The notes under the pieces were generated by a model. The model was not told the origin of the DNA. It saw only the letters and a program-made list of their open reading frames with translations, and did not search any database. 64,000 nucleotides of DNA from Parvibaculaceae bacterium (GTDB lineage: Bacteria > Pseudomonadota > Alphaproteobacteria > Parvibaculales > Parvibaculaceae): positions 868,001-932,000 of the forward strand of contig JAPWJY010000008.1 in the NCBI GenBank assembly GCA_028283765.1. Direction: 5' to 3'. Shown here piece after piece: positions 4,486 through 59,907 of this stretch. Both the position numbers and the translations under genes were made by a program. Position 1 is the stretch's first letter, and every line of letters begins with the position of its first letter.

Positions 4486-6029
4486 CCATGAGCGGGGCCT
4501 GCTCCATCGGTGGCGGAATGTCGCCATCTCTACTCGAAGTCGATCATGTCACGCGCAGCTTCGGGGCTGTTCGTGCCGTCGACGGAGTATCGTTCGATGT
4601 CAGGCCGGGTGAAGTCGTCGGACTTTGCGGCCACAACGGGGCAGGCAAGAGTACGATCGTAAAGATGCTGTCCGGCCAATTGAGGCCGGACAGCGGTCGG
4701 ATATTGCTTGCAGGCAACGAGTTAAAACTTGCTTCGCCGCGGCAAGCGCAGGCGGAAGGGATCGTGCTTGTCGATCAGGAACTGAGTCTGGTTCCCGCCC
4801 TCTCCGTTTTGGACAACCTTCAGTTGGGCAATTTCGATTCTACCTTCGTCCGGAAACCGTCATACGATTTCAACCGTGCGCGATCGCTCCTCGATGCGGT
4901 GGGATTGGCCCATGTCAATCCGGCCACTCCTCTCGAAGATCTGTCCATCGGGCAACGCCAGCTCATTGAAATCGCGCGGGCGCTTGGCAGGAAAGCAAGG
5001 CTGTTTCTTCTCGATGAACCGACGGCCACGCTGAGTAGCATCGACATCGAGCATGTATTCGCGGCAATCCGCCGGCTGACGGCAGCCGGCCACGGCGTGG
5101 TTTACGTGTCGCACCGCCTGGATGAGGTACTTCATCTCACCGACCGTGTGACAGTCGTTCGCGATGGCAGGCTGGTCGGCACGCGTGATACGAAAGCCAT
5201 CACCGGCAAGGAACTGGTGACGATGATGCTCGGCAAGCATGAGGAGCCGCCGCTCCGCGCCAGGGCGTCTGTCGCACAGGGCGGCGGCTCCACCCTGGCT
5301 GTGAGCGGACTTTTCGTCGGTGAGGGCGCGCGGGACGTCGCACTCACCGCGAAGGCAGGTCTGGTCTACGCGCTTGCCGGACAGGTCGGGTCGGGCACGA
5401 CGGAAGTGATCCGCGCCATTTCGGGGCTCGCACCGGATGCGCGTGGATCGGTTGTCCTCAACGGCAAACCGGTTCCGCTCGGTTCGATCCGTGCCGCGAC
5501 AAGGGCGGGCATCATTCTGGTTCCGGGAGACAGGAAAGGCGAAGGGCTTTTCCTCGGACAGAAGGTCGAGGACAATCTGACAGCCACTTCCCTGCCGCGT
5601 TACAGTCGATTTGGCGTCCTGAAGGCGGCTGGCCTCAGGAAACTGGCCCGAAAGCTTGCCGGGATTTGCGGCGTGGACGCCCGGCGGTTGCCGGATGCCG
5701 TTCGGGACCTGAGCGGTGGCAACCAGCAGAAAGTGCTGATAGGCCGCAGCCTCGAGCGGAAGGATACCAGGGTCCTGCTGTTCGATGAGCCGACGCGCGG
5801 TGTCGATGTCGGCGGCAGGGCGGACATCCACAAGCTGATCCGCTCCGTCGCTGATGGCGGCGCGATCGTTCTCTTCACGTCGACCGAGCTGCCTGAGATA
5901 CTTCATCTCGCGGATGTCATCGTCGCGATGCGTGGCGGCCGCATCGTGAGCGTGCGCGAGCGGGAACAGGTCGACTCGCACGAATTGCTCGCGGACATGA
6001 CCCATTCGTCTGCGCAGGAGGATGCATAG
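4482..6029 (+). CDS. Ribose-type ABC transporter ATP-binding protein (RbsA-like, two ATPase domains)
   Basis: This 515-residue tandem ATPase energises uptake. Domain 1 has Walker A GHNGAGKST, signature SIGQRQLIEIARAL and Walker B LFLLDEPTATL. Domain 2 has an altered Walker A (GQVGSGTTE, no lysine), signature LSGGNQQKVLIGRSL and Walker B VLLFDEPTRGVD. That pairing of one intact and one degenerate site is normal for RbsA/MglA/XylG proteins. The first ATG overlaps the upstream stop (ATGA at 4482-4485). An ATG at 4488 is 6 nt after AAAGG and may be the true start. It stands in the same operon as the binding protein and both permeases. Confidence 0.93.
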   Translation: MTMSGACSIGGGMSPSLLEVDHVTRSFGAVRAVDGVSFDVRPGEVVGLCGHNGAGKSTIVKMLSGQLRPDSGRILLAGNELKLASPRQAQAEGIVLVDQELSLVPALSVLDNLQLGNFDSTFVRKPSYDFNRARSLLDAVGLAHVNPATPLEDLSIGQRQLIEIARALGRKARLFLLDEPTATLSSIDIEHVFAAIRRLTAAGHGVVYVSHRLDEVLHLTDRVTVVRDGRLVGTRDTKAITGKELVTMMLGKHEEPPLRARASVAQGGGSTLAVSGLFVGEGARDVALTAKAGLVYALAGQVGSGTTEVIRAISGLAPDARGSVVLNGKPVPLGSIRAATRAGIILVPGDRKGEGLFLGQKVEDNLTATSLPRYSRFGVLKAAGLRKLARKLAGICGVDARRLPDAVRDLSGGNQQKVLIGRSLERKDTRVLLFDEPTRGVDVGGRADIHKLIRSVADGGAIVLFTSTELPEILHLADVIVAMRGGRIVSVREREQVDSHELLADMTHSSAQEDA

Positions 6030-6030
6030 G

Positions 6031-6987
6031 ATGGCGCAGGACGGTGAAGCGTTTCAGTTAAACAGAGGCCGGCCGATGACGATCGCAGCGGTGGGCGCCG
6101 TCGTCATCCTTGTTGCCGCAGCAGCTGCGACTACTCCCGGTTTTATCAGTATACAGAATTTTAGGGCGATCCTCGCCGCGACCACCTTTGTCGGCCTGAT
6201 CGCGGTGGGAATGACCGTGATCATGATCAGCGGCTCCTTCGTTTCGATGTCGCTGGGCACCATGGCGACCATCACAGCGATTTTCTTCATTTATGCGCTG
6301 AAGTTCGGCATTGCCGGGGCTATTCTTTCGACGCTGTTGCTGGGCGGCGTTCTGGGTCTCGTACAGGGGTTCCTCATCGGTGCCTGGGATGCCAATCCCA
6401 TTATCGTGACGATTGCCGCCGGCGCCCTGATGGAAGGTGTGAGCGTCGCATTGACCGGTGGCCAGGCCCTGTCTCCTCCGGACAACAATTATGCCTTCCT
6501 GAACACCACGCCCTGTGGAATTCCGGTAGGCACGTTCGTGCTGCTGCTGCTTGTCGCGGTGGTTGAGTTCCTCCTGCGCCGAACCCGCCTGGGCCGTGAG
6601 GTTTATATGCTTGGCGAAAGCCGGGCTGCTGCGCGTGCGGCTTCCCTGTCGCTGGGCGAAGTCGGATGCTGGGTGTTCATGCTGGCGGGATTTTCCGCAG
6701 CGCTGGCGGGGATATTCCTTGCCTCTTTCAATCACGGCGCGTCGCTTCTGCTCAATCGCGGAACATTGAACTATGACGCAATCGCCGCCACGCTCATTGG
6801 CGGCACGGCGATCGTGGGCGGCAGAGGATCCGTCTGGCGAACCCTGCTTGGCGTCATATTGATCGCCACGATCACCAATCTGGTCCTGCTGCGCGGCTAC
6901 AGTTTCGGGGCGCAGATATTCTTCAAGGGCGTTATCATGGCCGTGTTCGTTATTGTCATCCATCTGCGTTCACAAAGGGGACGCTGA
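6031..6987 (+). CDS. Ribose-type ABC transporter permease 1 (BPD_transp_2 family)
   Basis: This 318-residue inner-membrane permease of the RbsC/BPD_transp_2 family has about eight to ten hydrophobic segments, for example AVGAVVILVAAAAATTPGF near the N-terminus and VIMAVFVIVIHL at the end. It contains the family's GGTAIVGGRGSVWRTLLG segment near the C-terminus. The ATG at 6031 is chosen because AGGAGG (6016-6021) sits 9 nt upstream, whereas the in-frame ATG at 6022 would touch it. The stop overlaps the start of the second permease, so the two likely form a heterodimeric channel. Confidence 0.92.
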   Translation: MAQDGEAFQLNRGRPMTIAAVGAVVILVAAAAATTPGFISIQNFRAILAATTFVGLIAVGMTVIMISGSFVSMSLGTMATITAIFFIYALKFGIAGAILSTLLLGGVLGLVQGFLIGAWDANPIIVTIAAGALMEGVSVALTGGQALSPPDNNYAFLNTTPCGIPVGTFVLLLLVAVVEFLLRRTRLGREVYMLGESRAAARAASLSLGEVGCWVFMLAGFSAALAGIFLASFNHGASLLLNRGTLNYDAIAATLIGGTAIVGGRGSVWRTLLGVILIATITNLVLLRGYSFGAQIFFKGVIMAVFVIVIHLRSQRGR

Positions 6988-7979
6988 TGCCCGGAAAGTT
7001 GACGCTCGGTTACCCCTCGGCCCGGACGCTTCGTAAATCGCTGCCGCTTGTTGTCCTTGCGGTCGTGGTCGTGGCCCTGATCGCCTTGCCTCTTTATTCA
7101 AGTGCGCATGCGAGTGCGTTCAGCATCAACAATTCCTTGCAGAACGCCGCTTCGCTCGGTCTTCTGGCGCTGGGCGTGGGACTCACGATGATCATCGGGG
7201 AGTTCGATCTTTCCAGCCTTGGCGTCTACGCGATCGGGGGAATGATCGCTGTCAAATATGGAGCGGACTTCCCGGTCATGGGCATGCTGCTGGCGTTGGC
7301 GCTTGCCGTCGTCGTTGGCGGTGTCCAGGGCTGGATTATCGCGCGCACAGAGATCAGTTCCGTGCCGCTGACGCTCGGCGGCTATATCATTCTCCTCGGC
7401 GCCAGCCATCTCGTCAGCAACAGCCAGACCTTGGCTTATGCCAACTATGATGTCGGGATGTGGCTCGACGGGATTTTCGGCTTCGTCCTTTCTCCACGTA
7501 TCGCCATCGTGCTCGGTATATTTGTCCTCACCGCGGCTTTCATGGGGTGGACGCAGCTTGGCCGTGAAATACGTGCGGTTGGCGGCGATCGTCGCGCCAG
7601 CCGGGCTTCCGGGGTTCAGGTCGACCGGATCATTGTCGGAATATTCATCGCCTCGGCTTTTCTCTCCGCCTTGGGCGGTGCACTGTTCGCCTTGAGCAGC
7701 GCCGCGGCCAAGCCCGATCTCGGGCTTTCGCCTTTCATCTTTGCCGTCACGGCGGTGCTTCTGGGCGGTGTGTCGCTTGCTGGAGGGCGTGGAGGGGCAA
7801 TGGGTATTGTGGTGGGCGTCGTGTCGCTCAGCCTGCTTGAGACCCTGTTTTCTCTGCTGGGTACCCCGATCTACATGGTCAACGTGATTCGCGGCGCCCT
7901 GCTTTTGGTCGTGGTCGTCATCGAGGCGCCGGATTTGCGCCGGGCGCTGATTACTGTTCGACGAGCAAAATCTGCCTGA
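6987..7979 (+). CDS. Ribose-type ABC transporter permease 2 (BPD_transp_2 family)
   Basis: This 330-residue polytopic permease resembles RbsC, with N-terminal TM segment LPLVVLAVVVVALIALPLY and the conserved GGVSLAGGRGGAMGIVVG loop. It overlaps the preceding permease stop by one base (TGATG), indicating translational coupling. With the binding protein, the double ATPase and permease 1 it completes an importer. It is the last gene of the + strand run that begins at the left edge; a gene-free junction with repeated operator-like boxes follows. Confidence 0.92.
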   Translation: MPGKLTLGYPSARTLRKSLPLVVLAVVVVALIALPLYSSAHASAFSINNSLQNAASLGLLALGVGLTMIIGEFDLSSLGVYAIGGMIAVKYGADFPVMGMLLALALAVVVGGVQGWIIARTEISSVPLTLGGYIILLGASHLVSNSQTLAYANYDVGMWLDGIFGFVLSPRIAIVLGIFVLTAAFMGWTQLGREIRAVGGDRRASRASGVQVDRIIVGIFIASAFLSALGGALFALSSAAAKPDLGLSPFIFAVTAVLLGGVSLAGGRGGAMGIVVGVVSLSLLETLFSLLGTPIYMVNVIRGALLLVVVVIEAPDLRRALITVRRAKSA

Positions 7980-8095
7980 GCCACCGCCCAGGGGTATCTC
8001 CAGCCCTGCAAACCCGGCGACAGGCGTAGCCTGCCCCGTCATGCGCAGGTCGCCTGGTCAGGATAGATGGTGTTCCAAGGGGATGATGATGACGA

Positions 8096-8115
8096 CTACA
8101 TTAATATCGATGTAG
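8096..8115. promoter_or_regulatory. Inverted repeat CTACAT-N8-ATGTAG
   Basis: Perfect 6-bp arms CTACAT (8096-8101) and ATGTAG (8110-8115) flank TTAATATC-type AT-rich sequence. It lies 117 bp after the last importer gene and is a possible protein-binding site; no regulator gene is adjacent. Confidence 0.35.
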
Positions 8116-8253
8116 CGTCTGCGTTGACTTGTCATCGAAGGTTTCCGTCTCGTGATAAGAGCCATGCCCTTCCGCATGGCCAATGCGCGCGCCCGGTAAC
8201 CGCTGCTGCCATCCTTGCGTTAGCGCGGTAATCGTGCCCATGTCCGTTTCCCC

Positions 8254-8322
8254 ATCTGGTCTACGGATATCATATCTGGTCCATTGGACCAGATTCCGTG
8301 TTAAAATCACTGTATCTGGTCC
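8254..8322. promoter_or_regulatory. Phased ATCTGGTCC boxes, probable GntR/FCD-type operator
   Basis: ATCTGGTC occurs at 8254-8261, and ATCTGGTCC at 8274-8282 and 8314-8322. The middle copy is followed by ATT and then its exact inverse GGACCAGAT (8286-8294), making a perfect 21-nt palindrome. The third copy is followed by a partial inverse (GGACC, 8324-8328). Box starts are 20 and 40 nt apart, so roughly on one face of the helix. TGGTC-N-GACCA symmetry is typical of FCD-domain GntR repressors (known family trait); the assignment is inference. The last box ends 29 nt before the dusA start. Confidence 0.5.
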
Positions 8323-8351
8323 AGGACCGGCGCAGACCGTACAGAAAGAAA

Positions 8352-9389
8352 ATGCTCCAGAAGCCTGAGAAAAAAGAAAAATCCGGATATTTCAAAGCCC
8401 CGGTTTTTTCCGTCGCCCCCATGATGGACTGGACAGACCGCCACGATCGGTTCTTCCTGCGTCTCATTTCGGCGCGCGCCGTGCTTTACACCGAGATGGT
8501 CACCACCGGCGCGGTGCTGCATGGCAACCGCGAGCAGTTGCTGGGTTACGACGCGGCGGAGCATCCGCTGGTGCTGCAACTGGGTGGCTCCGATCCGGCG
8601 GCGCTCGCGCAGTCGGCGATGATCGCCGAAGACTATGGCTATGGCGCGGTCAATCTCAATGTCGGCTGCCCGTCCGACAGGGTGCAGTCCGGCCGCTTCG
8701 GCGCCTGTCTCATGCGCGAGCCGGAACTGGTGGCGGAATGCGTCGCGGCCATGGCGGCGGCGGTCTCCATTCCCGTCACGGTCAAGTGCAGGATCGGCGT
8801 CGATGAGCAGGACCCCGCCGAGGCGTTGCCCGCGATGGCCCATGCCGTCTCGCAGGCGGGCGTCCGTACCCTGATCGTCCACGCGCGCAAGGCCTGGCTC
8901 GAAGGCCTGTCGCCGAAGGAGAACCGCGAGGTCCCGCCGCTTGAGTATGCCCGCGTCCATGCCCTCAAGCAGGCCATGCCGCAGCTTGAGATCATCCTGA
9001 ACGGCGGGCTTGCGAATGTGGCGGCGGCGCTGCCCCACCTCGATGCGCTGGATGGCGTCATGTTCGGGCGCGCCGCCTATCAGTCGCCCTACATGCTGGC
9101 CGAGGTCGATCCGCTGCTGGGCCATGCGGGTCCGGTTTTGTCGCGCCATGAGGTGATCGAGAGCTTCATCCCCTATGTCGAGCGCCAGATGGCGTCGGGC
9201 ACCTCGTTCTACAGCATGGCCCGGCACATTCTGGGGCTCTATCAGGCCATGCCCGGCGCGAGGGCGTGGCGCAGGCTGTTGAGCGAGAAGGGACCGCGCG
9301 TCGGTCATGATGTGGCGGGCGCGCGCGCCTTGCTGGAGGAGGGGCTCACCCTCGTGCCGCGCTACCCTGAAGAGGCGGCGGCTGCATAA
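8352..9389 (+). CDS. dusA: tRNA-dihydrouridine(20/20a) synthase DusA
   Basis: This 345-residue FMN enzyme reduces uridine 20/20a in the tRNA D-loop. Diagnostic segments are SVAPMMDWTDRHDRFF near the N-terminus, NLNVGCPSDRVQ (with the catalytic cysteine), and VHARKAWLEGLSPKENREVPPL, which is characteristic of the DusA subfamily rather than DusB or DusC. The ATG at 8352 gives the short polar leader MLQKPEKKEK before the barrel; an upstream in-frame start at 8298 would run through the operator-like boxes and is less likely. The gene stands alone, convergent with the epimerase gene 12 nt downstream. Confidence 0.95.
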   Translation: MLQKPEKKEKSGYFKAPVFSVAPMMDWTDRHDRFFLRLISARAVLYTEMVTTGAVLHGNREQLLGYDAAEHPLVLQLGGSDPAALAQSAMIAEDYGYGAVNLNVGCPSDRVQSGRFGACLMREPELVAECVAAMAAAVSIPVTVKCRIGVDEQDPAEALPAMAHAVSQAGVRTLIVHARKAWLEGLSPKENREVPPLEYARVHALKQAMPQLEIILNGGLANVAAALPHLDALDGVMFGRAAYQSPYMLAEVDPLLGHAGPVLSRHEVIESFIPYVERQMASGTSFYSMARHILGLYQAMPGARAWRRLLSEKGPRVGHDVAGARALLEEGLTLVPRYPEEAAAA

Positions 9390-9401
9390 CCCCGCGTTTG
9401 C

Positions 9402-10382
9402 CTATCCCCAGAGCGCGGCGGGCGGCCGGTGCATCAGGCTGCCCTCATAGCGGATGCCCGGTTCGCGGTCCCGGGCCAGCAGCAGCGGGCCGTCGAGATC
9501 GACGAAGGCCGCGCCCTGCGCCACATAAAAGGCGGGGGCCATGGCAAGCGAGGTCGAAACCATGCAGCCCGCCATGATCTGGAAGCCGCGCGTGCGGGCA
9601 AGCCTTGCCAGTTCCAGCGCCTCGGTGAAGCCGCCGGTCTTGTCGAGCTTGATGTTGATCGCCTGATAAAGGCCGCGCAGGCGCTCAAGGCTCTCAATGC
9701 CGTGTGCGGATTCATCGGCGCAGAGCGTCACGGGGCAGTCGAGCCCGCGCAGGCTTTCATCGCCGCTGGCGGGCAGGGGCTGTTCGATGAGCGTGACGCC
9801 GAGCCGGTGGAGTTCGCGCGCGAGCGGCAGCACCTCGTCCGGCGACCAGGCTTCATTGGCGTCCACGATCAGCCTGGCCTGCGGCGCGCCCCGGCGCACG
9901 GCCTCCACGCGGGCAAGGTCCGCCCCGCCGCCCAGCTTCAGCTTCAGCAGCGGGCGCGCGCTCGCCCGGCGCGCGGCGTCCTCCATGGCATCCGGCTCGC
10001 CGAGGCTCAGGGTGAAGGCGGTGACGAGCGGAACGGGGGCGGGAAGCTGCGCCAGTTCCACGATGGAGCGTCCGCTGCGCCGGGCGGCAAGGTCCCACAA
10101 GGCGCAGTCGAGCGCGTTGCGCGCCGCGCCGGGCGCCAGCAGCGCCTGCAACGCCGCGATGCTGGCGCCATCGGCGATCTCGCGTTCCACCGAGCGGATC
10201 TGGGCGGTCACGCTTTCGATGGTTTCGCCGTAGCGGCCATAGGGCACGCATTCGCCCTGTCCGGCAAAGCCGTCTTCCCGGATGGTCACCAGCACCACCT
10301 CGGCGGATTTTTTCGAGCCGCGCGAGATGGTGAAGCCGCCCTCGATGGGCCAGGACTGGGGAACTGCTTCGAGCGTGCGCAT
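9402..10382 (-). CDS. Dipeptide epimerase, enolase superfamily (L-Ala-D/L-Glu epimerase or N-acetyl-D-Glu racemase type)
   Basis: This 326-residue muconate-lactonising-type enolase superfamily member carries the KxK base (LLKLKLGGG), metal ligands in DANEAW, EQPLP and CADES, and the opposite-face lysine in INIKLDKTGG. The layout matches dipeptide epimerases, which act on Ala-Glu released from peptidoglycan, and the related racemase DgcA. The ATG at 10382 begins MRTLEAVPQSWPIEGGF, and longer upstream extensions are antisense to nothing real. The gene starts 8 nt after the cytochrome c stop, so the two are probably co-transcribed, an odd functional pairing. Confidence 0.88.
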   Translation of the reverse strand: MRTLEAVPQSWPIEGGFTISRGSKKSAEVVLVTIREDGFAGQGECVPYGRYGETIESVTAQIRSVEREIADGASIAALQALLAPGAARNALDCALWDLAARRSGRSIVELAQLPAPVPLVTAFTLSLGEPDAMEDAARRASARPLLKLKLGGGADLARVEAVRRGAPQARLIVDANEAWSPDEVLPLARELHRLGVTLIEQPLPASGDESLRGLDCPVTLCADESAHGIESLERLRGLYQAINIKLDKTGGFTEALELARLARTRGFQIMAGCMVSTSLAMAPAFYVAQGAAFVDLDGPLLLARDREPGIRYEGSLMHRPPAALWG

Positions 10383-10390
10383 GGCGCGGT

Positions 10391-10846
10391 CTACTTCGCG
10401 GGTTCGCCCGCCGGAACCGTGCCGGTTATCTTGTTGGCCTGCGCCAGATAGGCGATCAGGTTGCGCCGGTCGTCGTCCCTGGCGAGGCCCGCGAACGACA
10501 TCATGGTGCCGGGTACATAGGCGCGCGGGCTCTTGAGATAGTCGAACAGGGTCTGCCCGCCCCAGACGAGGCCAGCCGCGCCCTTGGCCCGCATGGCGGA
10601 GGAATATTGGTAATCGGACACGGTGCCGGCCTTGCGGCCGAGAACGCCGGAAAGGTGGGGGCCGATCATGTTGGGCCCGCCTTCCGTCACCGTGTGGCAG
10701 GCGGCGCACTTCTTGAACACTTTCTCGCCCTTCACGGCGTCGCCGCCGGACCAGTCGTCCGCATGGGCAAGGGGAACGATGCCGGGCATGAGGCTGAGGC
10801 CAAGCAGGAGACAGAGGCTGGCGGAGGCTTTCAGGAGTGATTTCAT
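10391..10846 (-). CDS. Class I cytochrome c (cytochrome c2/c550 type)
   Basis: The 151-residue precursor has a Sec signal peptide (MKSLLKASASLCLLLGLSLMPGIVPLAHA), one haem motif CAACH, and the axial methionine segment GTMMSFAGLA, so it is a soluble periplasmic monohaem cytochrome. The YQYSSAM and GPHLSGVLGRKAG segments are typical of the mitochondrial/c2 class. Such proteins shuttle electrons between the bc1 complex and oxidases. It is the first gene of a two-gene minus-strand unit with the dipeptide epimerase. Confidence 0.94.
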   Translation of the reverse strand: MKSLLKASASLCLLLGLSLMPGIVPLAHADDWSGGDAVKGEKVFKKCAACHTVTEGGPNMIGPHLSGVLGRKAGTVSDYQYSSAMRAKGAAGLVWGGQTLFDYLKSPRAYVPGTMMSFAGLARDDDRRNLIAYLAQANKITGTVPAGEPAK

Positions 10847-28471: not shown

Positions 28472-30913
28472 TCAGCGAGAGGGATTTTCCCTGTGGCGGG
28501 CGTCGCGCTTCGTGATTTCTTCGTCAAGGCTCGCGAGCAGGGCGTCGGACTCCTTGAGATGCAGGCGTTCGGTTTCAATAATCGCGCGAAAGAGCCTGAC
28601 CTTGTAGTCCCATGGGTCGATGGTGCCGGCGGGCATGTCGGCGGAGATGGAACTCATGACAATATCGACCAGCCGGTCGGCGGCATGGAGCCGTCCCCAC
28701 AGATAATCGTTCTCGCGCACGGTGCGGCTGAAGAAGCCCGCGAAGCGGCCAAGATCGCGGCCCTTGAGCATGGCGCGGCCCGTGTCGCGGATGCCGCGCG
28801 CATCTTCGGGGCTGATGCGGTCTACGAGCACGCTGTCGATTTCGTCGATCTCGCGGTCGTTGTTGAGCGTGAAGGTGATCACGTCGAAGAACGCGAAGCC
28901 GACATAGGCGCCGACCAGTTCCTGACGGAAAACCGTCGGCAGGAAGGTGCCGGCCGTCAGGGAAAACAGCCGGTCGACGATCCGGTCAGCCTCGGGCAGA
29001 TCCATGAGGTCGCCCAGCAGGGTGATGAAACTGTCAAGCGTGGCGGGATCGGGAATTTCCTCGCCCGCGAGCTGGCCCGCCAGCACATCGATATGGTCGC
29101 GATCCGTGCGCTCCTGCTGCGAGCGCTCGTAAAGAAGCTCAAGCCCCTCGTAGAGCGACCCCTTGAACTCGTCGAGACGCGATGAATCCGACGGGTCCAG
29201 CGGATGGGCCGGATCGGTTTCATAGAGTTCGTTCAGGCGGCGGATGACGAAATAGAGGCGGCGCAACCGGTAATTGATGTCGAAACGGCGCAGGAAGGTG
29301 AGCCATGGTTCGGTTTCAGCCTTTTCCTCTCCTTCGCGGGCCTCAGGCGTCAGCCAGTTGACCGGGAAAATCAGCTTCTCGCGCGCCCAGTTTTCCAGCG
29401 CCCGTTGCAGGCGCTGCTCGTGGCGGCGCTCGACCTGAATGCCCGCGAGCCGGATGATGATCTGGGCGATCTGGCGCAGCACCGACAATACCTTGGACTG
29501 CACATAGCCGTCATAGGCGAAGCCCGATTCCTGGGCTGCGCGCTTGCTGGCGATGTCGCGCCATTCCCTCAGTTTCTCCGGCATCGGCGACATTTCCGTC
29601 TCATGGCCGAGCAGGCCCTTGATGCGGGCATCGACATGGGGGCGGCTTGCGCGCACCACATCGCGGTAATGCCGGACCCGCTCGGAAAACTGGTAGATCG
29701 AATCCAGATCGTCGCGCACCGGCTGGTTGCGCGGAATATCCGAAAGCGCGGCGCGCAGCGTCATGAAGAAGCCGGGCAGGCGCTCGGGCCGGTCGATCTG
29801 GCCTGTGTTCGGGTCCGGGTCGATATAGACGATGCGCCGGTCCACCTGCCGGAAGGCGGAACGCTTGCGCAGCGCCGCGACTGCCTCCGCGAACGGCTTG
29901 TTGTTGAGCACGCTGCCATCGATGAAATAGGCATTGTCGGGATTAATGTCGCCCGCCAGCATTGGCGCGAAATTGCGGGCGATGAAGGCGTCGCGGTCGC
30001 CCCACAGCATGCCGCGCTCAGCCACCAGTTCATCGATTTCGCCGATATGGGCAGCCGGGAACGCGCCGGGAAAGCATGAGGTGGCGCGCGCGGCGAAGAC
30101 GAGGCCCGGAATATTGGCATCGCCCAGTTCAGAGCTGTGGCGCTCTATGGCATGATGGGTGGCGGTGAAGCGGAACAGATGGCGATGTTCGCGCTCCCGG
30201 ATCATCGGCGGGTCGTGGAGCGGAATATCCTGCGCATAGCCGCGATAATCCGTGACGGAGACGGCGAGTTCCAGCCGGATGCCGCGCGGCAGCAGCGAGG
30301 GCATGGTTTCCGGCGAAACACCCATGCTGGAGCAGGCGTCCATCAGCATGTCGGACATGAGCTTGCCCGAGAAGGGCGGCTCGAACCAGCGCGAGCGCAT
30401 GAAGGTCAGGAGCTTCGTGCGCATTTCCAGATCGGGCACATGGCGATCGAGCCAGCCGCTGTTGAAGCGCGAGAAGAAGGGCATCAGGAAGAGCTTGCTC
30501 CAGCGGCCGGGCGTGTGGTCCTCGTCCATGAGCGCGGTCGTATCCGCGCATTCGAGCCACATGCGCCGATGGTCATCGATGCTCAGATTATGGGCAATGG
30601 CGCGCGCCAGCAGCACGCCGTTGATGCCGCCGGCCGAAGCGCCGGTGATTGTGTCGATGATGACGCGCAGATCGACATATGTGTTGATGGCCTTGAGCAG
30701 ATCGAAAAAGACGGCTTCCGTATCGCATTCGCGTTCGGGTGAGACATTGACGCCGGCATAGGTGGCTGCCGCCTTGTCGCCGTCGGGCACAAGCTGGAAA
30801 GCGGCCGAGGCGCGCACCAGCTTCAGGATCTCCCGGGTCACGCCATGCATGTAAACAGCGAGGGAAACGCCACCGTAACAGACCAGGGCGAGCCTGAGTT
30901 CCTTTTCCTTCAT
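28472..30913 (-). CDS. Patatin-like phospholipase-domain protein (DUF3376-type)
   Basis: This 813-residue protein has a patatin core: oxyanion region CYGGVSLAVYMHG (12-24), nucleophile motif GASAG with Ser93, and the dyad aspartate in FIDGSVLNNKPF. The ~450-residue C-terminal region is helical and lacks a familiar enzyme motif; the overall size fits the patatin-DUF3376 group. Patatins hydrolyse acyl chains from phospholipids. There is no signal peptide, so it is cytosolic or peripheral. Single gene with a strong hairpin upstream. Confidence 0.88.
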   Translation of the reverse strand: MKEKELRLALVCYGGVSLAVYMHGVTREILKLVRASAAFQLVPDGDKAAATYAGVNVSPERECDTEAVFFDLLKAINTYVDLRVIIDTITGASAGGINGVLLARAIAHNLSIDDHRRMWLECADTTALMDEDHTPGRWSKLFLMPFFSRFNSGWLDRHVPDLEMRTKLLTFMRSRWFEPPFSGKLMSDMLMDACSSMGVSPETMPSLLPRGIRLELAVSVTDYRGYAQDIPLHDPPMIREREHRHLFRFTATHHAIERHSSELGDANIPGLVFAARATSCFPGAFPAAHIGEIDELVAERGMLWGDRDAFIARNFAPMLAGDINPDNAYFIDGSVLNNKPFAEAVAALRKRSAFRQVDRRIVYIDPDPNTGQIDRPERLPGFFMTLRAALSDIPRNQPVRDDLDSIYQFSERVRHYRDVVRASRPHVDARIKGLLGHETEMSPMPEKLREWRDIASKRAAQESGFAYDGYVQSKVLSVLRQIAQIIIRLAGIQVERRHEQRLQRALENWAREKLIFPVNWLTPEAREGEEKAETEPWLTFLRRFDINYRLRRLYFVIRRLNELYETDPAHPLDPSDSSRLDEFKGSLYEGLELLYERSQQERTDRDHIDVLAGQLAGEEIPDPATLDSFITLLGDLMDLPEADRIVDRLFSLTAGTFLPTVFRQELVGAYVGFAFFDVITFTLNNDREIDEIDSVLVDRISPEDARGIRDTGRAMLKGRDLGRFAGFFSRTVRENDYLWGRLHAADRLVDIVMSSISADMPAGTIDPWDYKVRLFRAIIETERLHLKESDALLASLDEEITKRDARHRENPSR

Positions 30914-31053
30914 GACGGCTTTCTCACGCGGTGCTCTTCATGGCTTTTCGGGCGGATGGCAAAGCGGGCGCAGTCTAGAGCGCGATCAGGGAAAGCGTAA
31001 GTATTTTGTGCTTCATGTCCGGGCCGCGCAGACTTTGTCAAAAGCCGGACACG

Positions 31054-31087
31054 GCAAGGGCCGGGGCATTGCCGCCCCGGCCCTTGC
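31054..31087 (-). terminator. Long hairpin terminator downstream of the receiver-MarR gene
   Basis: GCAAGGGCCGGGGC (31054-31067) and its exact complement GCCCCGGCCCTTGC (31074-31087) form a perfect 14-bp stem with loop ATTGCC. It lies 48 bases past the stop of the minus-strand receiver-MarR gene. The downstream T-run on that strand is short (CTTTTG, 15 nt away), so efficiency is uncertain. Confidence 0.65.
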
Positions 31088-31135
31088 TGATTTCACGAGC
31101 AGGCTTGCCCGATGAAGAGAGGTATCGCCGCCCGT

Positions 31136-32029
31136 TTACTGGGCGGCGGCTGCCGCGGCGGCGAGCGCCGCGTTGGCGGCCTCCGTCACGAGGCGTTTCG
31201 ACAGGGTCTGCACATCGGTTTCGAGGCCCTGCACCGAGGTCAGGCCCCGGGAGGTGAGGGTGAGATTGATCTGCCGCCCGTCGGAATGGTCCCGCTGGCG
31301 CGAGACGAGTCCCTGTGTTTCGAGCTTGCGCAGGCGCCGGTGGGCTGTCGCGAGCGGCGCACCGGAGCCGAACGCCAGCGCGGTAACGGAAACAGGCCGG
31401 TTGTTGCTCATGTGCCAGGCAAGATCGATCAGCATGTTGAGTTCGATTTCATCGACGCCGGACCTTTCGCGATGCCGGCTCTTGAGGCGCTCAAGGCCGA
31501 CCAGAAGGCGAAGCGCCGTCACCTCGTCGATACGGTTGAGCGCGTCCTGCGGCCGGACGGGCCGGGCCTGGGGTGATGGCGCCACCTTGCCGGCTTCGCC
31601 GGTCGACATGCGCTCGCCCTCCAGTTCCAGGGTCTGCCGGGCAATGGCGCGCTCGACAGCGCTGACGATGTCGCCGTCACCGGTGGGCTTGACCAGAAAA
31701 TCGACGACGCCGAGCCGGAGCATTTCGATGATCGCTTCCGGCGAATTCTGCTCCGATATGACGATGACATCCATGTGCCTGTTGACGAATCCGAACCTCA
31801 ATTCCCGGATGACACGGTAGCCCTGCGCCCCAAGGGCCGAGAGATCGACCAGCGCCACCCGGATGCGGGCGTTATTGCGGACCTGATCGACCGGATTGTT
31901 GAGCGACGTTACATAAACGCAGTCAAATCCCCGGCTGATCAGAGCGCCTGAAAGTGATCTCGACCGGGATTCGTCCCCGCCGAGGATCAGGAGAGCCGGC
32001 AAGACCGGCTGCGGCTGAGCGGTAGCCAT
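31136..32029 (-). CDS. Receiver-MarR fusion transcription regulator
   Basis: This 297-residue protein joins a CheY-like receiver (about residues 8-130) to a MarR-type winged helix (~180-285). In the receiver I see acidic GGDE, the phospho-acceptor position in RVALVDLSALG, a serine at the fourth strand (VIVISEQNS) and the lysine in FLVKPTG, so it looks phosphorylatable. The winged helix has SGAPLATAHRRLRKLETQGLVSRQRDHSDGRQINLTLTSRG. The protein ends in an alanine-rich tail. A MarR output on a receiver is uncommon. ATG 32029 gives MATAQPQPVLP. Confidence 0.83.
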   Translation of the reverse strand: MATAQPQPVLPALLILGGDESRSRSLSGALISRGFDCVYVTSLNNPVDQVRNNARIRVALVDLSALGAQGYRVIRELRFGFVNRHMDVIVISEQNSPEAIIEMLRLGVVDFLVKPTGDGDIVSAVERAIARQTLELEGERMSTGEAGKVAPSPQARPVRPQDALNRIDEVTALRLLVGLERLKSRHRERSGVDEIELNMLIDLAWHMSNNRPVSVTALAFGSGAPLATAHRRLRKLETQGLVSRQRDHSDGRQINLTLTSRGLTSVQGLETDVQTLSKRLVTEAANAALAAAAAAAQ

Positions 32030-32429
32030 GGTTTGGTTTCCCTCTTGATGTAACCCTGAATTTCTGTGGATACACACGAATGAAACGCGACAAAGCGGCA
32101 TGAACAGGTGAGGGTGACTTGGCGCTTTCCTGTGCCGGCCCCTTTCCGGCGCAGGGAAATCATGGCAAAAATAAAACATCCTGATTAGGCAATATGGTTA
32201 TTAATATATAGCCATATTGATCTATTAATGCTGAAAAAAGAAAGGGGGATGCTCGTCCGCCGTCCGGAATTTTTAACCGGCCATGTAGAGGGAAAAGACC
32301 GGGAAGGCCCATATATAGATGGTAAAATTTTAGAATAAACAAATTTCTACAATATGTAGTGTATTTTTGCTGCGCTAATACAGGGCGAAGCGGGCATGAA
32401 ATTACCCCGCAAAGCGGAATCATTTATGG
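32030..32429. other. AT-rich intergenic region upstream of the receiver-MarR gene
   Basis: These 400 bases, between terC (which ends here) and the receiver-MarR gene (which starts here), are clearly richer in A and T than their surroundings. Apart from the inverted repeat at 32190-32219, I find no gene or RNA. A short CCGC-AAA-GCGG hairpin (32407-32417) just beyond the terC stop could contribute to termination. Confidence 0.5.
32190..32219. promoter_or_regulatory. Inverted repeat CAATATGG-N14-CCATATTG
   Basis: Perfect 8-bp arms (32190-32197 and 32212-32219) flank an AT-rich 14-nt spacer that is itself partly symmetric. It lies 160-190 bp upstream of the receiver-MarR start and could be that regulator's binding site, since MarR proteins bind AT-rich palindromes. 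Confidence 0.45.
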
Positions 32430-33416
32430 TTAACACTCATGCCTTTGCCCCTCATTCCGGCTGCGCCACAGGCTGTAGAGGACGCCTCCGGCGAGAACGG
32501 CGACAGTGATGCCCAGACTGAGCAGGGGATCGACCTTGCCGAAAATGTCATTCCAGAAGATTTTTCCGCCAATGAAGACGAGAACGATGGCCAGCGCCGT
32601 CTTGAGATAGGCGAAGCGGCGGATGACGGCGGCAAGGGCGAAATAGAGGGCCCGCAGGCCGAGCACCGCGAATATGTTGCTCGTGAAAACGATGAACGGG
32701 TCTGTCGTGATCGCGAAGATCGCGGGCACGCTGTCGACGGCAAAAATCAGATCGGCCGTTTCCACCATGAGCAGCGCCAGCAAAAGCGGGGTGGCCACGC
32801 GCCGCAACCGGCCCGAGGCGTCCCGCTCCCTGGTCACAAAATGGTGGCCGTCCAGTTTTTCGGACACGCGCAGATGGCGCTTGAAAAAGCATAAAAGGCG
32901 GCTGTCAGCGGGGTCGCTTGCCATTTCCCCGGAAAAGAACATCCGGATCGCGGTGAAAATGAGAAAGGCGCCGAACAGCCACAAAACCCAGTGAAATTCG
33001 GTCACAAGCGCCGTGCCGACGCCGATGAGGATGCCACGCAGGATAATGACGCCAATGATGCCCCAGACCAGCACCCGGTGCTGATAGAGCGCGGGGATGC
33101 CAAGTACGCCGAAGATGAGCGAGATGACGAAGATATTGTCGAGCGAAAGGCTTTTCTCGATCAGCAGGCCGGTGGTGAACTCGATGGCCTTGGTCGCGCC
33201 TTCCATCTGCCAGATGAACACGGCAAAGCACAGGCCGACGGACAGATAGAAGGCGGAGAGCAGCAGGCTCTCTCGCGCGCCGATCACATGGTCCTTCCGG
33301 TTGAGGACGCCCAGATCCAGCGCCATCAGGCTTGCGATCACGGCAAAAAACACAACCCAGAACCAGAGAGGGGTTCCCAGCAGTGGCGATAAAGCCACTG
33401 TTTCGAACGTGCCCAT
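32430..33416 (-). CDS. TerC/Alx-family membrane protein, probable metal exporter
   Basis: This 328-residue protein has about eight to nine membrane segments and the TerC signature acids: SLSLDNIFVISLIF, and ETADLIFAVDSVPAIFAIT in the second half. The Alx subgroup exports manganese in other bacteria; tellurite resistance is the older family name. The start at 33416 follows a leader of ~490 bases with stable hairpins, so post-transcriptional control is possible. Confidence 0.92.
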   Translation of the reverse strand: MGTFETVALSPLLGTPLWFWVVFFAVIASLMALDLGVLNRKDHVIGARESLLLSAFYLSVGLCFAVFIWQMEGATKAIEFTTGLLIEKSLSLDNIFVISLIFGVLGIPALYQHRVLVWGIIGVIILRGILIGVGTALVTEFHWVLWLFGAFLIFTAIRMFFSGEMASDPADSRLLCFFKRHLRVSEKLDGHHFVTRERDASGRLRRVATPLLLALLMVETADLIFAVDSVPAIFAITTDPFIVFTSNIFAVLGLRALYFALAAVIRRFAYLKTALAIVLVFIGGKIFWNDIFGKVDPLLSLGITVAVLAGGVLYSLWRSRNEGQRHEC

Positions 33417-37666: not shown

Positions 37667-39127
37667 TTGTTGGCAGGCTATCGCTGTTTCAAGGCTCCGG
37701 GCCGGGTTCTGGGTGCCTCGGCCCTGTTTTTGACAGTGGCCGCCTGTACGCTTTCGCCCAATGTGCCGGATCCCAAAGTGTCGGCCCCCGTCAGTTTCAA
37801 AGAGGCGACGCCTGCGATGTCGGCCGTCTGGCCTGAACTGGGCTGGTGGCAGGGCTTCGGTTCGCCGGAACTCGACCGGCTGATGGCGCAAACCCAGGAT
37901 TCGAACCTCGACATTGCCGCTGCCATCGCCCGCATCGAGCAGGCGGATGCCCAGATCAAGGTGTCCGGCTCCTCGCTTTATCCCTCGCTTTCCGCCAGCG
38001 GACAGGGGGAGCGGTCGCGCCGCGGCACGGGCGGTTCAAATTCAGGGTTGGGGGACATCTATCAGGGCAGCAATTCGCGCATCTCCAACAGCTATAATGC
38101 GGGCCTGACCGCGAGCTATGAGCTGGACTTCTGGGGCGGCAACCGCGCGGCGCTCGAATCCGCCCGCCAGAGCGCCCTTGCCAGCCGCTACGACAAGGAA
38201 ACCGTGGCGCTGACGGCGACCACGAGCACGGCGACCACCTATTTCGCCATTCTCGCGGCGCAGGACCGGCTGGCGCTGGCCCGGGACAATCTCCGGATCG
38301 CCGAGCAGACGCTCGATGTCATCAAGGCCCGCAGCAGGGTGGGCGTGGCGACGGAACTGGATCTGGCCAACCAGGAGACGATCGTGGCCCAGCAGCGCGC
38401 CGCAATTCCGCCGCTGGAGCTTGACCTGACCCAGAACATCAATGCGCTGGCCATTCTGACCGGTCACGCCCCGGAAGAAGTGCAGGTGACCGGCGGCAAG
38501 CTGGCCGGACTGAAGACGCCTGTGGTGGTCCCGGGGTTGCCCTCCGAGCTTCTGGCCCGGCGGCCCGACGTGCGCGAGGCCGAGGCAAATCTGTCTGCCG
38601 CGCGGGCCAACGTGCAGGTGGCGCGCGCGGCCATGTTCCCGAACATTACGCTGACGGCGACAGGCGGCTATGAAAGCTCGGCCCTGAGCCAGCTTTTCAC
38701 CCCCGGTGGTTTTTTCTCCTCGTTGACGGGCGGGCTGACCCAGCCCCTGTTCGAGGGCTTCGCCCTGCAGGGGCAGCTTGAGGCCAACAAGGCCGCCTAT
38801 CGCGAATTGATGGCGACCTACCAGAAAACTATCATCTCGGCCTTTTCCGATGTGGACGATGCGCTGGCCTCGATCCGGCGTACCACCGAGCAGGAGCAGC
38901 AGCAGGAGCTTGTCGTTGCGTCCGCGCAGCGCGCCTATGACATCGCACAGGCGCAGTTGCGGGTGGGCGTGGTCGACATCACGGATGTCCTCAACGCCGA
39001 GCAGACCCTTTTTTCGGACCGGGACGCGCTTGCCCAGGTCCGGCTGTCGCGCATCAATGCCGTCGTGAGCCTGTTCCAGGCGCTGGGCGGCGGCTGGACC
39101 GAGCCAACCCAGATCAGCGCCAAATGA
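37667..39127 (+). CDS. RND efflux outer-membrane lipoprotein (NodT/OprM family)
   Basis: The 486-residue TolC-like channel has a lipoprotein signal ending in LTVAAC and two outer-membrane efflux repeats with long coiled coils. Typical segments are ASYELDFWGGNRAALESARQ, LLARRPDVREAEANLSAARANVQVARAAMFPNITL and LRVGVVDITDVLNAEQTLF. It forms the exit duct for the pumps encoded next. The start is unusual: the best-fitting codons are TTG at 37667 or 37670, since no in-frame ATG or GTG precedes the signal peptide. It is the first gene of a four-gene efflux operon. Confidence 0.93.
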   Translation: MLAGYRCFKAPGRVLGASALFLTVAACTLSPNVPDPKVSAPVSFKEATPAMSAVWPELGWWQGFGSPELDRLMAQTQDSNLDIAAAIARIEQADAQIKVSGSSLYPSLSASGQGERSRRGTGGSNSGLGDIYQGSNSRISNSYNAGLTASYELDFWGGNRAALESARQSALASRYDKETVALTATTSTATTYFAILAAQDRLALARDNLRIAEQTLDVIKARSRVGVATELDLANQETIVAQQRAAIPPLELDLTQNINALAILTGHAPEEVQVTGGKLAGLKTPVVVPGLPSELLARRPDVREAEANLSAARANVQVARAAMFPNITLTATGGYESSALSQLFTPGGFFSSLTGGLTQPLFEGFALQGQLEANKAAYRELMATYQKTIISAFSDVDDALASIRRTTEQEQQQELVVASAQRAYDIAQAQLRVGVVDITDVLNAEQTLFSDRDALAQVRLSRINAVVSLFQALGGGWTEPTQISAK

Positions 39128-39139
39128 CCGGAAGGCCTC

Positions 39140-40309
39140 ATGACGAACTTGCCTCATAACCCGCCACGCAAATCCCGCAGGGGACTTCTGATCGGTATCG
39201 CCGTCATTGTGGTTGGGCTGGTTCTCTGGTTCACCCTGCATCATGGCGGGCGCAGGACCGCCTTCATGGGCGACGAGGCGATCCCCGTGGCGGCAGGCGA
39301 GGTGGCGCTCGCCGATGTGCCCGTCTATGCACAGGGGGTCGGCACCGTGCAGGCCTTCAAGACGGTGACGATGCGGGCCCAGGTCAGCGGGCAACTGGTC
39401 AAGGTGCCGTTCGTGGAAGGGCAGGAGGTCAAGAAGGGCGACCTTCTCGCCCTCATCGACAAGGCGACCTATCAGGCGACCTACGATCAGGCGGTGGCGA
39501 AGAAGGCGCAGGATCAGGCGCTGCTCGACAACGCCATCCGCGATCTCGCGCGCTATGAGGAACTTGCCCGCACCAACTATTCCTCGCATCAGCAGGCCGA
39601 CACGCAGAAATCGACCGTGGCCCAGTACCGGGCGCAACTGCAGTCGGATCAGGCCGCCATCGAGAGCGCGAAGGCGACGCTGGATTATTGCACCATCGTT
39701 TCTCCCATCGACGGCCGCACCGGCGTGCGGCTGGTGGACGAGGGCAATCTGGTGAGTTCCGGCGATACGACCGGCATCGTCGTCGTGACCGAGACGAAAC
39801 CGATCTCCGTCGTCTTCACCTTGCCGCAGCAGCAGCTTGAAGATGTCATGGCGGCGACAAGGGCGGGCCAGGTGACGGCGGACGCGCTGGGCGGCGACGG
39901 CACGAGCGTGCTCGACACGGGCGTGCTGGCGGTTGTCGACAATGAGATCGACCAGGCTACCGGGACGCTGAAACTGAAGGCCACTTTCCCCAATCTGGAT
40001 GAAAAACTGTGGCCCGGCGCCTTCGTCAATGTGCGGCTGCGGCTGAAGACGCTTGAAAAGGCGCTGGTGGTGCCTTCCGCTGCCGTGCAGCAGGGGGCGA
40101 GCGGTCCCTATGTCTTCGTCATCAAGGACGACAAGACCGTTACCCAGCAGAACGTAACCCTGCTGCAATCCGATGATACGCAGGCCGTGCTCGGCGCGGG
40201 CGTGACGGCGGGACAGAAAATCGTCACCACCGGTTTTGCCCAGTTGAAGGAGGGCAGCAAGATATCCCTGGGGGATGAGGTCAAGCCCGCCGCGACGGAC
40301 GCGCCATGA
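39140..40309 (+). CDS. RND efflux periplasmic adaptor subunit (MdtA-like)
   Basis: The 389-residue membrane-fusion protein has an N-terminal membrane anchor (about residues 14-32), a lipoyl/barrel-sandwich segment (VQAFKTVTMRAQVSGQLVKVPFVEGQEVKKGD), a coiled-coil hairpin and a beta-barrel part (LDYCTIVSPIDGRTGVRLVDEGNLV). It bridges the inner-membrane pumps and the outer-membrane channel. Its stop overlaps the first pump gene by four bases. Confidence 0.95.
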   Translation: MTNLPHNPPRKSRRGLLIGIAVIVVGLVLWFTLHHGGRRTAFMGDEAIPVAAGEVALADVPVYAQGVGTVQAFKTVTMRAQVSGQLVKVPFVEGQEVKKGDLLALIDKATYQATYDQAVAKKAQDQALLDNAIRDLARYEELARTNYSSHQQADTQKSTVAQYRAQLQSDQAAIESAKATLDYCTIVSPIDGRTGVRLVDEGNLVSSGDTTGIVVVTETKPISVVFTLPQQQLEDVMAATRAGQVTADALGGDGTSVLDTGVLAVVDNEIDQATGTLKLKATFPNLDEKLWPGAFVNVRLRLKTLEKALVVPSAAVQQGASGPYVFVIKDDKTVTQQNVTLLQSDDTQAVLGAGVTAGQKIVTTGFAQLKEGSKISLGDEVKPAATDAP

Positions 40310-58778: not shown

Positions 58779-59507
58779 CTATGAGCCTCCTGGCCGGTCT
58801 GCTTCCTCTCTGGGGAGACGCGATCCCTGATGTTGTGGATCCCTGAGCATGTAGCCACGCCCCCAGATCGTTTCGATATAACGGTCGCCAGATGTCGCCA
58901 TCGCCAGTTTTTTTCTCAGTTTGCAGATGAAGACATCAATGATCTTGAGTTCCGGCTCGTCGATTCCGCCGTAAAGATGATTGAGGAACATTTCCTTGGT
59001 GAGGGTGGAGCCCTTGCGCAAAGAAAGCAGTTCCAGCATCTGATATTCCTTGCCCGTCAAATGCACGCGCTCACCCTCGGCTTCGACGGTTTTGGCATCC
59101 AGATTGATGGTCAGCTTGCCGGTCGTGATGACTGACTGGGCGTGCCCTTTGGATCTGCGCACGACAGCGTGTATGCGAGCGACAAGTTCCTCGCGGTGAA
59201 AGGGTTTTGTGACGTAGTCATCGGCCCCGTCTTCGAGGCCTTTGATCTTCTCGTCAAGCTCGCCATGGCCCGACAATATAACGATGGGTGTGGATATTTT
59301 GCTTTTTCGCAGAGTCTTCAGAACCTCATACCCGCTCATATCCGGCAGGGTCAGATCAAGTAGAATCGCGTCGTAATCATAGAGTCTTCCAAGGTCTATC
59401 CCTTCTTCGCCATAGGAAGTGCTGTAAACATTGAAGCCATCGGATTTAAGCATCAATTCAATGCTGTTGGCAGTTGCTTCATCATCTTCAATTACCAGAA
59501 TACGCAT
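58779..59507 (-). CDS. ctrA: Cell-cycle response regulator CtrA
   Basis: This 242-residue OmpR-type regulator has phospho-acceptor Asp51 ([16 protein letters not shown]), acidic D8/D9, and Lys104 in [25 protein letters not shown]. The C-terminal winged helix ([56 protein letters not shown]) is almost identical to CtrA proteins. CtrA controls cell division, DNA methylation, motility and replication start. It is transcribed leftward from a 400-base upstream region containing two GANTC methylation sites. Confidence 0.96.
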
Positions 59508-59907
59508 GATGCCTCTCTAACGTGGGCTTTCGCCGCTCTCCAAAATTCAAGCAACTAATCCTAAAGTATATAGAAAAAACAGACCTTCGGGACAGGATTC
59601 TGATGGCTGGTGGAAAGGATCGTGAGTAGGGGATTTTTATATGTCTCAGTTTGATGCGTTCTGTTTTGGCGCAGAATGCCTGGGGCAGGTTTGATAGTTT
59701 TTATGAAAAAGAGAATTATTTTACGCTGCGTTAGAATAATTATTCAAATATGGGGCAGATTAGAGTCTGTAACAGAGACTTATACTTGCCATGCTCTTGT
59801 GCCAGGCAGTGTTCATTTAGCTCTGCGCATAATCTATCCGATTATGTGGGCTGACAATAGACATGCGGAGGGCAGCTCATGGGACGCGCAACCGGAGAAC
59901 CCGGCGC
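59508..59907. other. ctrA upstream region with GANTC sites and a CtrA-like box
   Basis: These 400 bases contain GATTC (59596-59600) and GAGTC (59763-59767), both CcrM (GANTC) sites. An inverted repeat AATTATT-N14-AATAATT (59714-59741) encloses TTTA-N7-TTAG (59720-59734), a degenerate match to the CtrA box TTAA-N7-TTAA. In Caulobacter, ctrA transcription depends on the methylation state of such a site; here this is inference. No gene is seen. Confidence 0.5.

Follow-up and report, generated by a model that had tools for sequence, protein, structure and literature searches.

A receiver-MarR protein of Parvibaculaceae with glycines in place of the acidic pair, probably an orphan atypical response regulator

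The receiver-MarR gene and its neighbours

The DNA analysed here, a stretch of 64,000 nucleotides from a Parvibaculaceae genome (hereafter the window), carries on its minus strand a gene for a 297-residue protein that joins a receiver to a MarR-type DNA-binding domain. The mechanical open reading frame extends to 32179. The ATG at 32029 was taken as the start because in the sister species (G001, the named record L034; 91% identical) the reading frame is blocked one codon upstream of this ATG. The gene is built as follows.

31136-32029, minus strand: gene of the receiver-MarR protein, 297 residues, stop codon within the span (open reading frame and Pfam)
31634-31999, minus strand: receiver domain, residues 11-132 (Pfam, AlphaFold2, VIA-align)
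31526-31633, minus strand: residues 133-168, the last part of the long helix (118-144) followed by a low-confidence linker (AlphaFold2, pLDDT below 50 at 145-165)
31139-31525, minus strand: MarR-type winged helix and C-terminal helix, residues 169-297 (Pfam, AlphaFold2, Foldseek)

The fusion had been proposed in an earlier note, and Pfam, AlphaFold2 and Foldseek all recover both of its domains in this one gene. Pfam detects a receiver (PF00072) at residues 24-125 (3.5e-9; 37.3 bits, cut-off 30.2), the match beginning at profile position 12, i.e. past the acidic pair, and MarR (PF01047) at residues 208-254 (5.7e-7; 29.8 bits, cut-off 24.6). The AlphaFold2 model (15 sequences, mean pLDDT 82.7) shows a receiver and a MarR-type winged helix: strands and helices alternate from residue 12, followed by the long helix, the low-confidence linker, the winged helix and a C-terminal helix (260-296). 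A structural prediction lacking the receiver fold had been named as the outcome that would speak against the fusion; AlphaFold2 and VIA-align display the (beta-alpha)5 fold, and VIA-align ranks the HupR receiver best for the front domain (Z 18.9, 1.8 A across 135 residues). Foldseek likewise matches the front domain to receivers, and the back domain to DNA-bound MepR, MexR and MarR. Membership of the MarR family is further indicated by the wing residues Asp250 and Arg252, which are invariant in all 20 receiver-MarR proteins aligned. The fold and these conserved residues are shared with MarR, MexR and MepR, which are, however, single-domain proteins, whereas here a receiver and a long helix precede the winged helix.

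Receiver-MarR fusions are a known, rare kind of protein. Rarity had also been suspected in the earlier note, and few MarR-output regulators were indeed encountered, both in our genome searches and in a survey of Azospirillum. With a single sequence as query, at least 4 of 385 genomes of the class matched at E <= 1e-12; with a six-row profile, at least 13 of 385 had a row spanning both domains. A search of the phylum gave at least 6 of 398 genomes with a both-domain row among the matches listed, all from the same class. The own genome is included in each count, and all are lower bounds, since the best five to six candidates per genome were scored. The order-level genome set consists of the same 40 genomes as the family-level set. 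In the Azospirillum survey, MarR is listed as a response-regulator class with 0, 1, 2 and 0 members in four genomes (PMC4618731, Table 5); as classed there, those proteins resemble ours in fusing a receiver to a MarR-type DNA-binding domain. Nor does the fusion appear to be a common annotated family, as no NCBIfam model fits the whole protein above its cut-off. In open-licence PubMed Central, we found no paper on a pseudo-receiver version of this architecture and none using the phrase "MarR output domain", and the term MarR is absent from the main text of a review of pseudo-receivers (PMC12632262).

Several features surround the gene. Upstream lies a TerC/Alx gene starting at 33416, directly preceded by a terC RNA (Rfam RF03067; 33460-33517, minus strand; 56.5 bits, gathering threshold 39.9). 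Linkage of the regulator to TerC was considered and rejected: TerC matches (E <= 1e-30) occur in 11 of the 40 family genomes, and in the closest relative outside the genus (G013) TerC is located on a different contig from the receiver-MarR gene. Downstream, a patatin-like protein (TIGR03607, 627 bits) is encoded at 28472-30913 on the minus strand, and this order is the same in the sister species. A second receiver-containing frame of 245 residues is found at 58782-59516 (minus strand), with no kinase match within the 64 kb. At 37667-40309 on the plus strand, two adjacent frames resemble, by eye, an outer-membrane efflux channel and a membrane-fusion protein.

The AT-rich upstream region

The TerC stop codon and the ATG are separated by 400 bases with a G+C content of 44%, against 62% for the window. 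Three features were distinguished there.

32190-32219: inverted repeat CAATATGG/CCATATTG, with 12 of its 15 pairs symmetric (8 of 15 in the sister species)
32186-32225: best conserved 40-column intergenic block (88% against 65% overall), a possible promoter or self-binding site
32204-32359, minus strand: three CTAYATAT octamers (32204-32211, 32311-32318, 32352-32359), also in the sister species at matching distances

The inverted repeat had been put forward as a ready binding-site candidate, and it is present, with perfect arms of 8 bases. The idea of the 30-base palindrome as a conserved operator is not supported: 26 of its 30 bases are identical in the sister species, yet the symmetric pairs drop from 12 to 8 of 15. 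Moreover, dinucleotide shuffling of the intergenic region gave perfect arms of at least 8 bases around a spacer of 3-20 bases in 69 of 500 cases, and an arm pair matching at 11 of 12 positions in 9 of 300. Allowing up to three mismatches, the 30-base pattern occurs once in the whole window (0.12 expected). A regulon built on the same motif was also rejected, as the 16-base core (up to two mismatches) has one site in each of the two genomes, the sister genome being 68% complete, and a reversed control pattern has one in each as well. What survives is a weaker form of the proposal. The AT-rich block around the repeat is conserved to a degree equalled in 40 of 1000 permutations, a modest significance, and may tentatively be regarded as a candidate promoter or self-regulatory sequence.

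The window has no CTAYATAT octamer besides these three, whose positions are -330, -289 and -182; in the sister species the corresponding positions are -332, -291 and -185. Three copies were obtained in 0 of 3000 shuffles in either species; the motif was, however, chosen after looking, and some octamer occurs three times within one mismatch in 59 of 60 shuffles. The 700 bases upstream of the G013 relative contain none of CTAYATAT, ATATAG, CAATATG, CATATTG and TAACC, and a sigma-70 scan of 31000-32500 returned nothing (0.5 expected).

Phosphorylation pocket, kinase context and selection

The five pocket residues of receivers are designated DD, D, T and K (Bourret et al. 2025, PMC12632262). Their counterparts in the 297-residue protein, together with its cysteine, are encoded at the following positions.

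31976-31981, minus strand: Gly17-Gly18, replacing the acidic metal-binding pair (20-protein alignment)
31844-31846, minus strand: Asp62, the aspartate that is phosphorylated in canonical receivers (20-protein alignment)
31754-31756, minus strand: Ser92, T position (20-protein alignment)
31688-31690, minus strand: Lys114, K position (20-protein alignment)
31919-31921, minus strand: Cys37, the sole cysteine of the protein (sequence)

The pocket was read in an alignment of 20 receiver-MarR proteins, two from this genus and 18 from other genera, in which row L051 (G066) is included; alignments A3 and A4 exclude it. The acidic pair is Gly-Gly in both species of the genus and acidic in all 18 proteins of other genera. 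Position D+4 is Leu, as opposed to Pro in 17 of the 18, and T+1 is Glu where all 18 have Gly, Ala or Ser. K-3 is Phe (Phe111), and the Y-T coupling residues are intact. The statement that the receiver keeps its key residues is thus true of Asp62, Ser92 and Lys114, and wrong for the acidic pair, D+4 and T+1. With G, G, D, S and K, the protein does not have all five residues of a phospho-competent response regulator. A pseudo-receiver is defined in section 3 of the review as a domain recognised as a receiver and missing any one of the five (PMC12632262), and with glycine at both DD positions the protein is, by this definition, an atypical response regulator with a pseudo-receiver. G178, one of the 18, likewise qualifies as a pseudo-receiver, having Ala at T while keeping the acidic pair; its Pfam receiver score is 45 bits, and those of three other relatives with intact pairs are 80, 72 and 74 bits.

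No sensor kinase had been noticed beside the gene, and wider searches agree. Neither HisKA nor HATPase_c has a match within the 64-kb window, nor do the two seed kinases used for the relatives. On the 2.08-Mb contig, no HisKA or HATPase_c match comes closer to the gene than about 254 kb, so that a partner kinase encoded nearby, as expected of a phospho-competent response regulator, is missing; elsewhere in the genome there are 11 HisKA matches above the cut-off.

Kinase frames near the relatives were sought with the two seeds, which were taken from two of those loci. A histidine-kinase frame is present in the fetched region of 9 of 13 relatives (G013, G176, G316, G223, G219, G411, G166, G234 and G197, in the last about 4.7 kb from the receiver-MarR gene) and was not seen in the fetched regions of the other four (G160, G386 on a 7.9-kb contig, G178 and G066). 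As these four also have intact pairs, a missing neighbour alone does not imply loss of phosphorylation. Among the kinase-near loci, G176 and G411 share one gene order on a single strand: receiver-MarR, receiver, receiver, kinase. In G013, a second receiver adjoins the receiver-MarR gene and the kinase is on the opposite strand. Clusters in which a receiver-MarR gene is joined by a large kinase and by one or two single receivers (L069 in G013, 6349-10733; L070 in G176, 5636-10152) look like a recurrent module.

G013 belongs to the same family, is about one third identical, has an intact pocket and groups with this genus at 100/99 in an output-domain tree with long branches. One family therefore holds both a pseudo-receiver (G000, the genome described here) and an intact relative that lies near a kinase and has an output domain of the same kind, which would allow a direct comparison of what the loss has changed.

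The protein is nonetheless well preserved. By a simple count on the two sequences, the two species differ in the receiver at a dN/dS of 0.091, in the linker at 0.205 and in residues 169-280 at 0.018. In the last segment 109 of 112 residues are identical, making the winged helix the most conserved part. As judged from these sequences, both domains are under purifying selection and the pseudo-receiver is maintained.

Proposed mode of action, alternatives and related losses

Two recognisable folds, the loss of the acidic pair, the lack of a kinase nearby, relatives that are intact and mostly close to a kinase, and purifying selection form the basis of our main reading. We consider the 297-residue protein to be an orphan atypical response regulator with MarR output, whose receiver has turned into a pseudo-receiver, and assign to this a probability of about 0.65. 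Retention of D, T and K, with Phe still at K-3, counts against it. The protein probably works without phosphorylation, because the metal-binding part of its pocket has been lost and no kinase lies beside the gene, yet the protein is well preserved. The suggestion that phosphorylation may drive the MarR domain is left unsupported: the aspartate is there, and both metal-holding acidic residues are glycine in both species. Given the Gly-Gly pair, and since the protein is an orphan with a pseudo-receiver, phosphorylation is unlikely to be its main switch. The domain-level reading, in which a receiver plus MarR means that phosphorylation drives MarR, can mislead; the acidic pair should be checked, not the aspartate alone.

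In this protein, the receiver would no longer switch by phosphotransfer and would instead serve as a dimerisation or docking module, the receiver and the long helix holding the dimer. Phosphate would not be needed for DNA binding by the MarR domain, whose targets probably include the AT-rich promoter region of its own gene, and output might follow the protein level (autoregulation) or some partner, ligand or redox input. The three pocket residues that are retained (Asp, Ser and Lys) may have a role in the dimer, by analogy with the D residue of GlnR and RamR.

The output domain of GlnR is of the OmpR type, unlike the MarR type found here. In other respects, GlnR-type regulators as described in section 18 of PMC12632262 resemble the 297-residue protein: they are orphans, keep the Asp in an incomplete pocket and are active without its phosphorylation, as we propose here. 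The same section assigns the D residue of GlnR and RamR to the dimer. Of the 20 bacterial atypical regulators described in sections 5 and 18 of that review, only two are non-orphan, and many dimerise without phosphate; the review, from 2025, calls the switching of bacterial pseudo-receivers a mystery. Our protein differs from the receiver-MarR proteins of other genera, 18 of which keep the acidic pair and 9 of 13 of which are near a kinase; neither applies to it.

Three other explanations deserve attention. The protein could be a working but slow regulator, in which an unlinked kinase phosphorylates Asp62, other groups (e.g. Asp19) hold the metal and phosphate controls the MarR domain. Asp62, Ser92, Lys114 and Phe111 at K-3 are all kept, the 11 HisKA matches elsewhere in the genome offer possible donors, and changes at DD need not abolish phosphorylation, weak activity being allowed for in section 20 of PMC12632262. 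The pocket, however, combines loss of the acidic pair with a bulky Glu at T+1 and no Pro at D+4, a triple unseen in the 18 relatives from other genera, and we judge this explanation unlikely.

Somewhat less likely still is a redox switch, in which an inter-subunit disulfide through Cys37 would alter DNA binding, as reported for HP1021-type atypical regulators. Cys37 is the sole cysteine in both species. Section 20 of PMC12632262 places the redox cysteine of Hp1021, Cj1608 and Abu0127 at DD+19, and Cys37 is at Gly18 + 19, a correspondence that holds if one counts from the second residue of the pair, which is our own reading of the numbering in that review. C27 of HP1021 is the one cysteine conserved in its homologues, according to PMC8266642. 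Thus HP1021, Cj1608 and Abu0127 share with our protein an orphan pseudo-receiver and a cysteine at the corresponding alpha1-beta2 place; they differ in the output domain, and HP1021 has six cysteines instead of one. On the other hand, a cysteine is found at this place in 7 of the 18 relatives with intact pairs and hence is not tied to loss of the pocket, and PMC8266642 leaves the reactive cysteine of HP1021 undefined and reports no inter-subunit bridges in vivo. For these reasons Cys37, the one hint of an input, is a weak hint.

A ligand-sensing MarR protein with a passive receiver, binding a small molecule in the MarR domain as ordinary MarR proteins do, would suit the fold close to that of ligand-binding MepR and MexR (Foldseek) and the strong conservation of the winged helix, but is improbable, as purifying selection on the receiver (the dN/dS of 0.091) speaks against passivity and the neighbours (TerC, whose G013 counterpart is unlinked, and the patatin-like protein) suggest no ligand.

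Returning to the orphan pseudo-receiver, related proteins of two other lineages have also lost pocket residues. In a genus of the same family (g4) and in another family (f12), a related winged helix is found in proteins roughly 310-380 residues long; three of the g4 frames lack a front domain. The Pfam receiver model detected none of the six proteins scanned, three per group. Nevertheless, one g4 protein, when modelled (mean pLDDT 75.9), shows the topology of a receiver and matches receivers at Z 13.3. Front domains undetected by Pfam occur at L008 (910-1944) in g4 and at L089 and L096 in f12, the modelled receiver fold being that of the g4 protein.

The g4 and f12 rows were compared with a profile built from the 18 receivers whose pair is intact, many alignments being too weak to trust singly. 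With this reservation, among the rows that reach the K position, 12 of 13 in g4 and all 6 in f12 have a residue other than Lys there. In f12, all 6 rows that reach DD1 lack an acidic residue at it, while DD2 is Asp in all 7. On the output-domain tree (53 rows, L051 from G066 included), the state of lacking at least one of the five residues requires three changes over the 37 rows read, or four with G178; the tree has no inferred root, and several of its long branches are receiver-MarR rows. Pocket residues were thus probably lost separately in these two lineages. Their proteins resemble ours in having a related output domain and a pocket with residues lost; unlike ours, their front domain is beyond Pfam, and mainly K and DD1 are lost rather than the whole acidic pair.

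It is conceivable, though we hold it only tentatively, that receivers of alphaproteobacterial MarR-output response regulators became pseudo-receivers several times, with a new input arising in this genus, e.g. redox sensing through one cysteine. The routes would be loss of the acidic pair here, drift past Pfam detection in g4 and f12, and loss of the Ser/Thr in G178. If this is true, these proteins form a natural series leading from kinase-driven to kinase-free control of one output domain.
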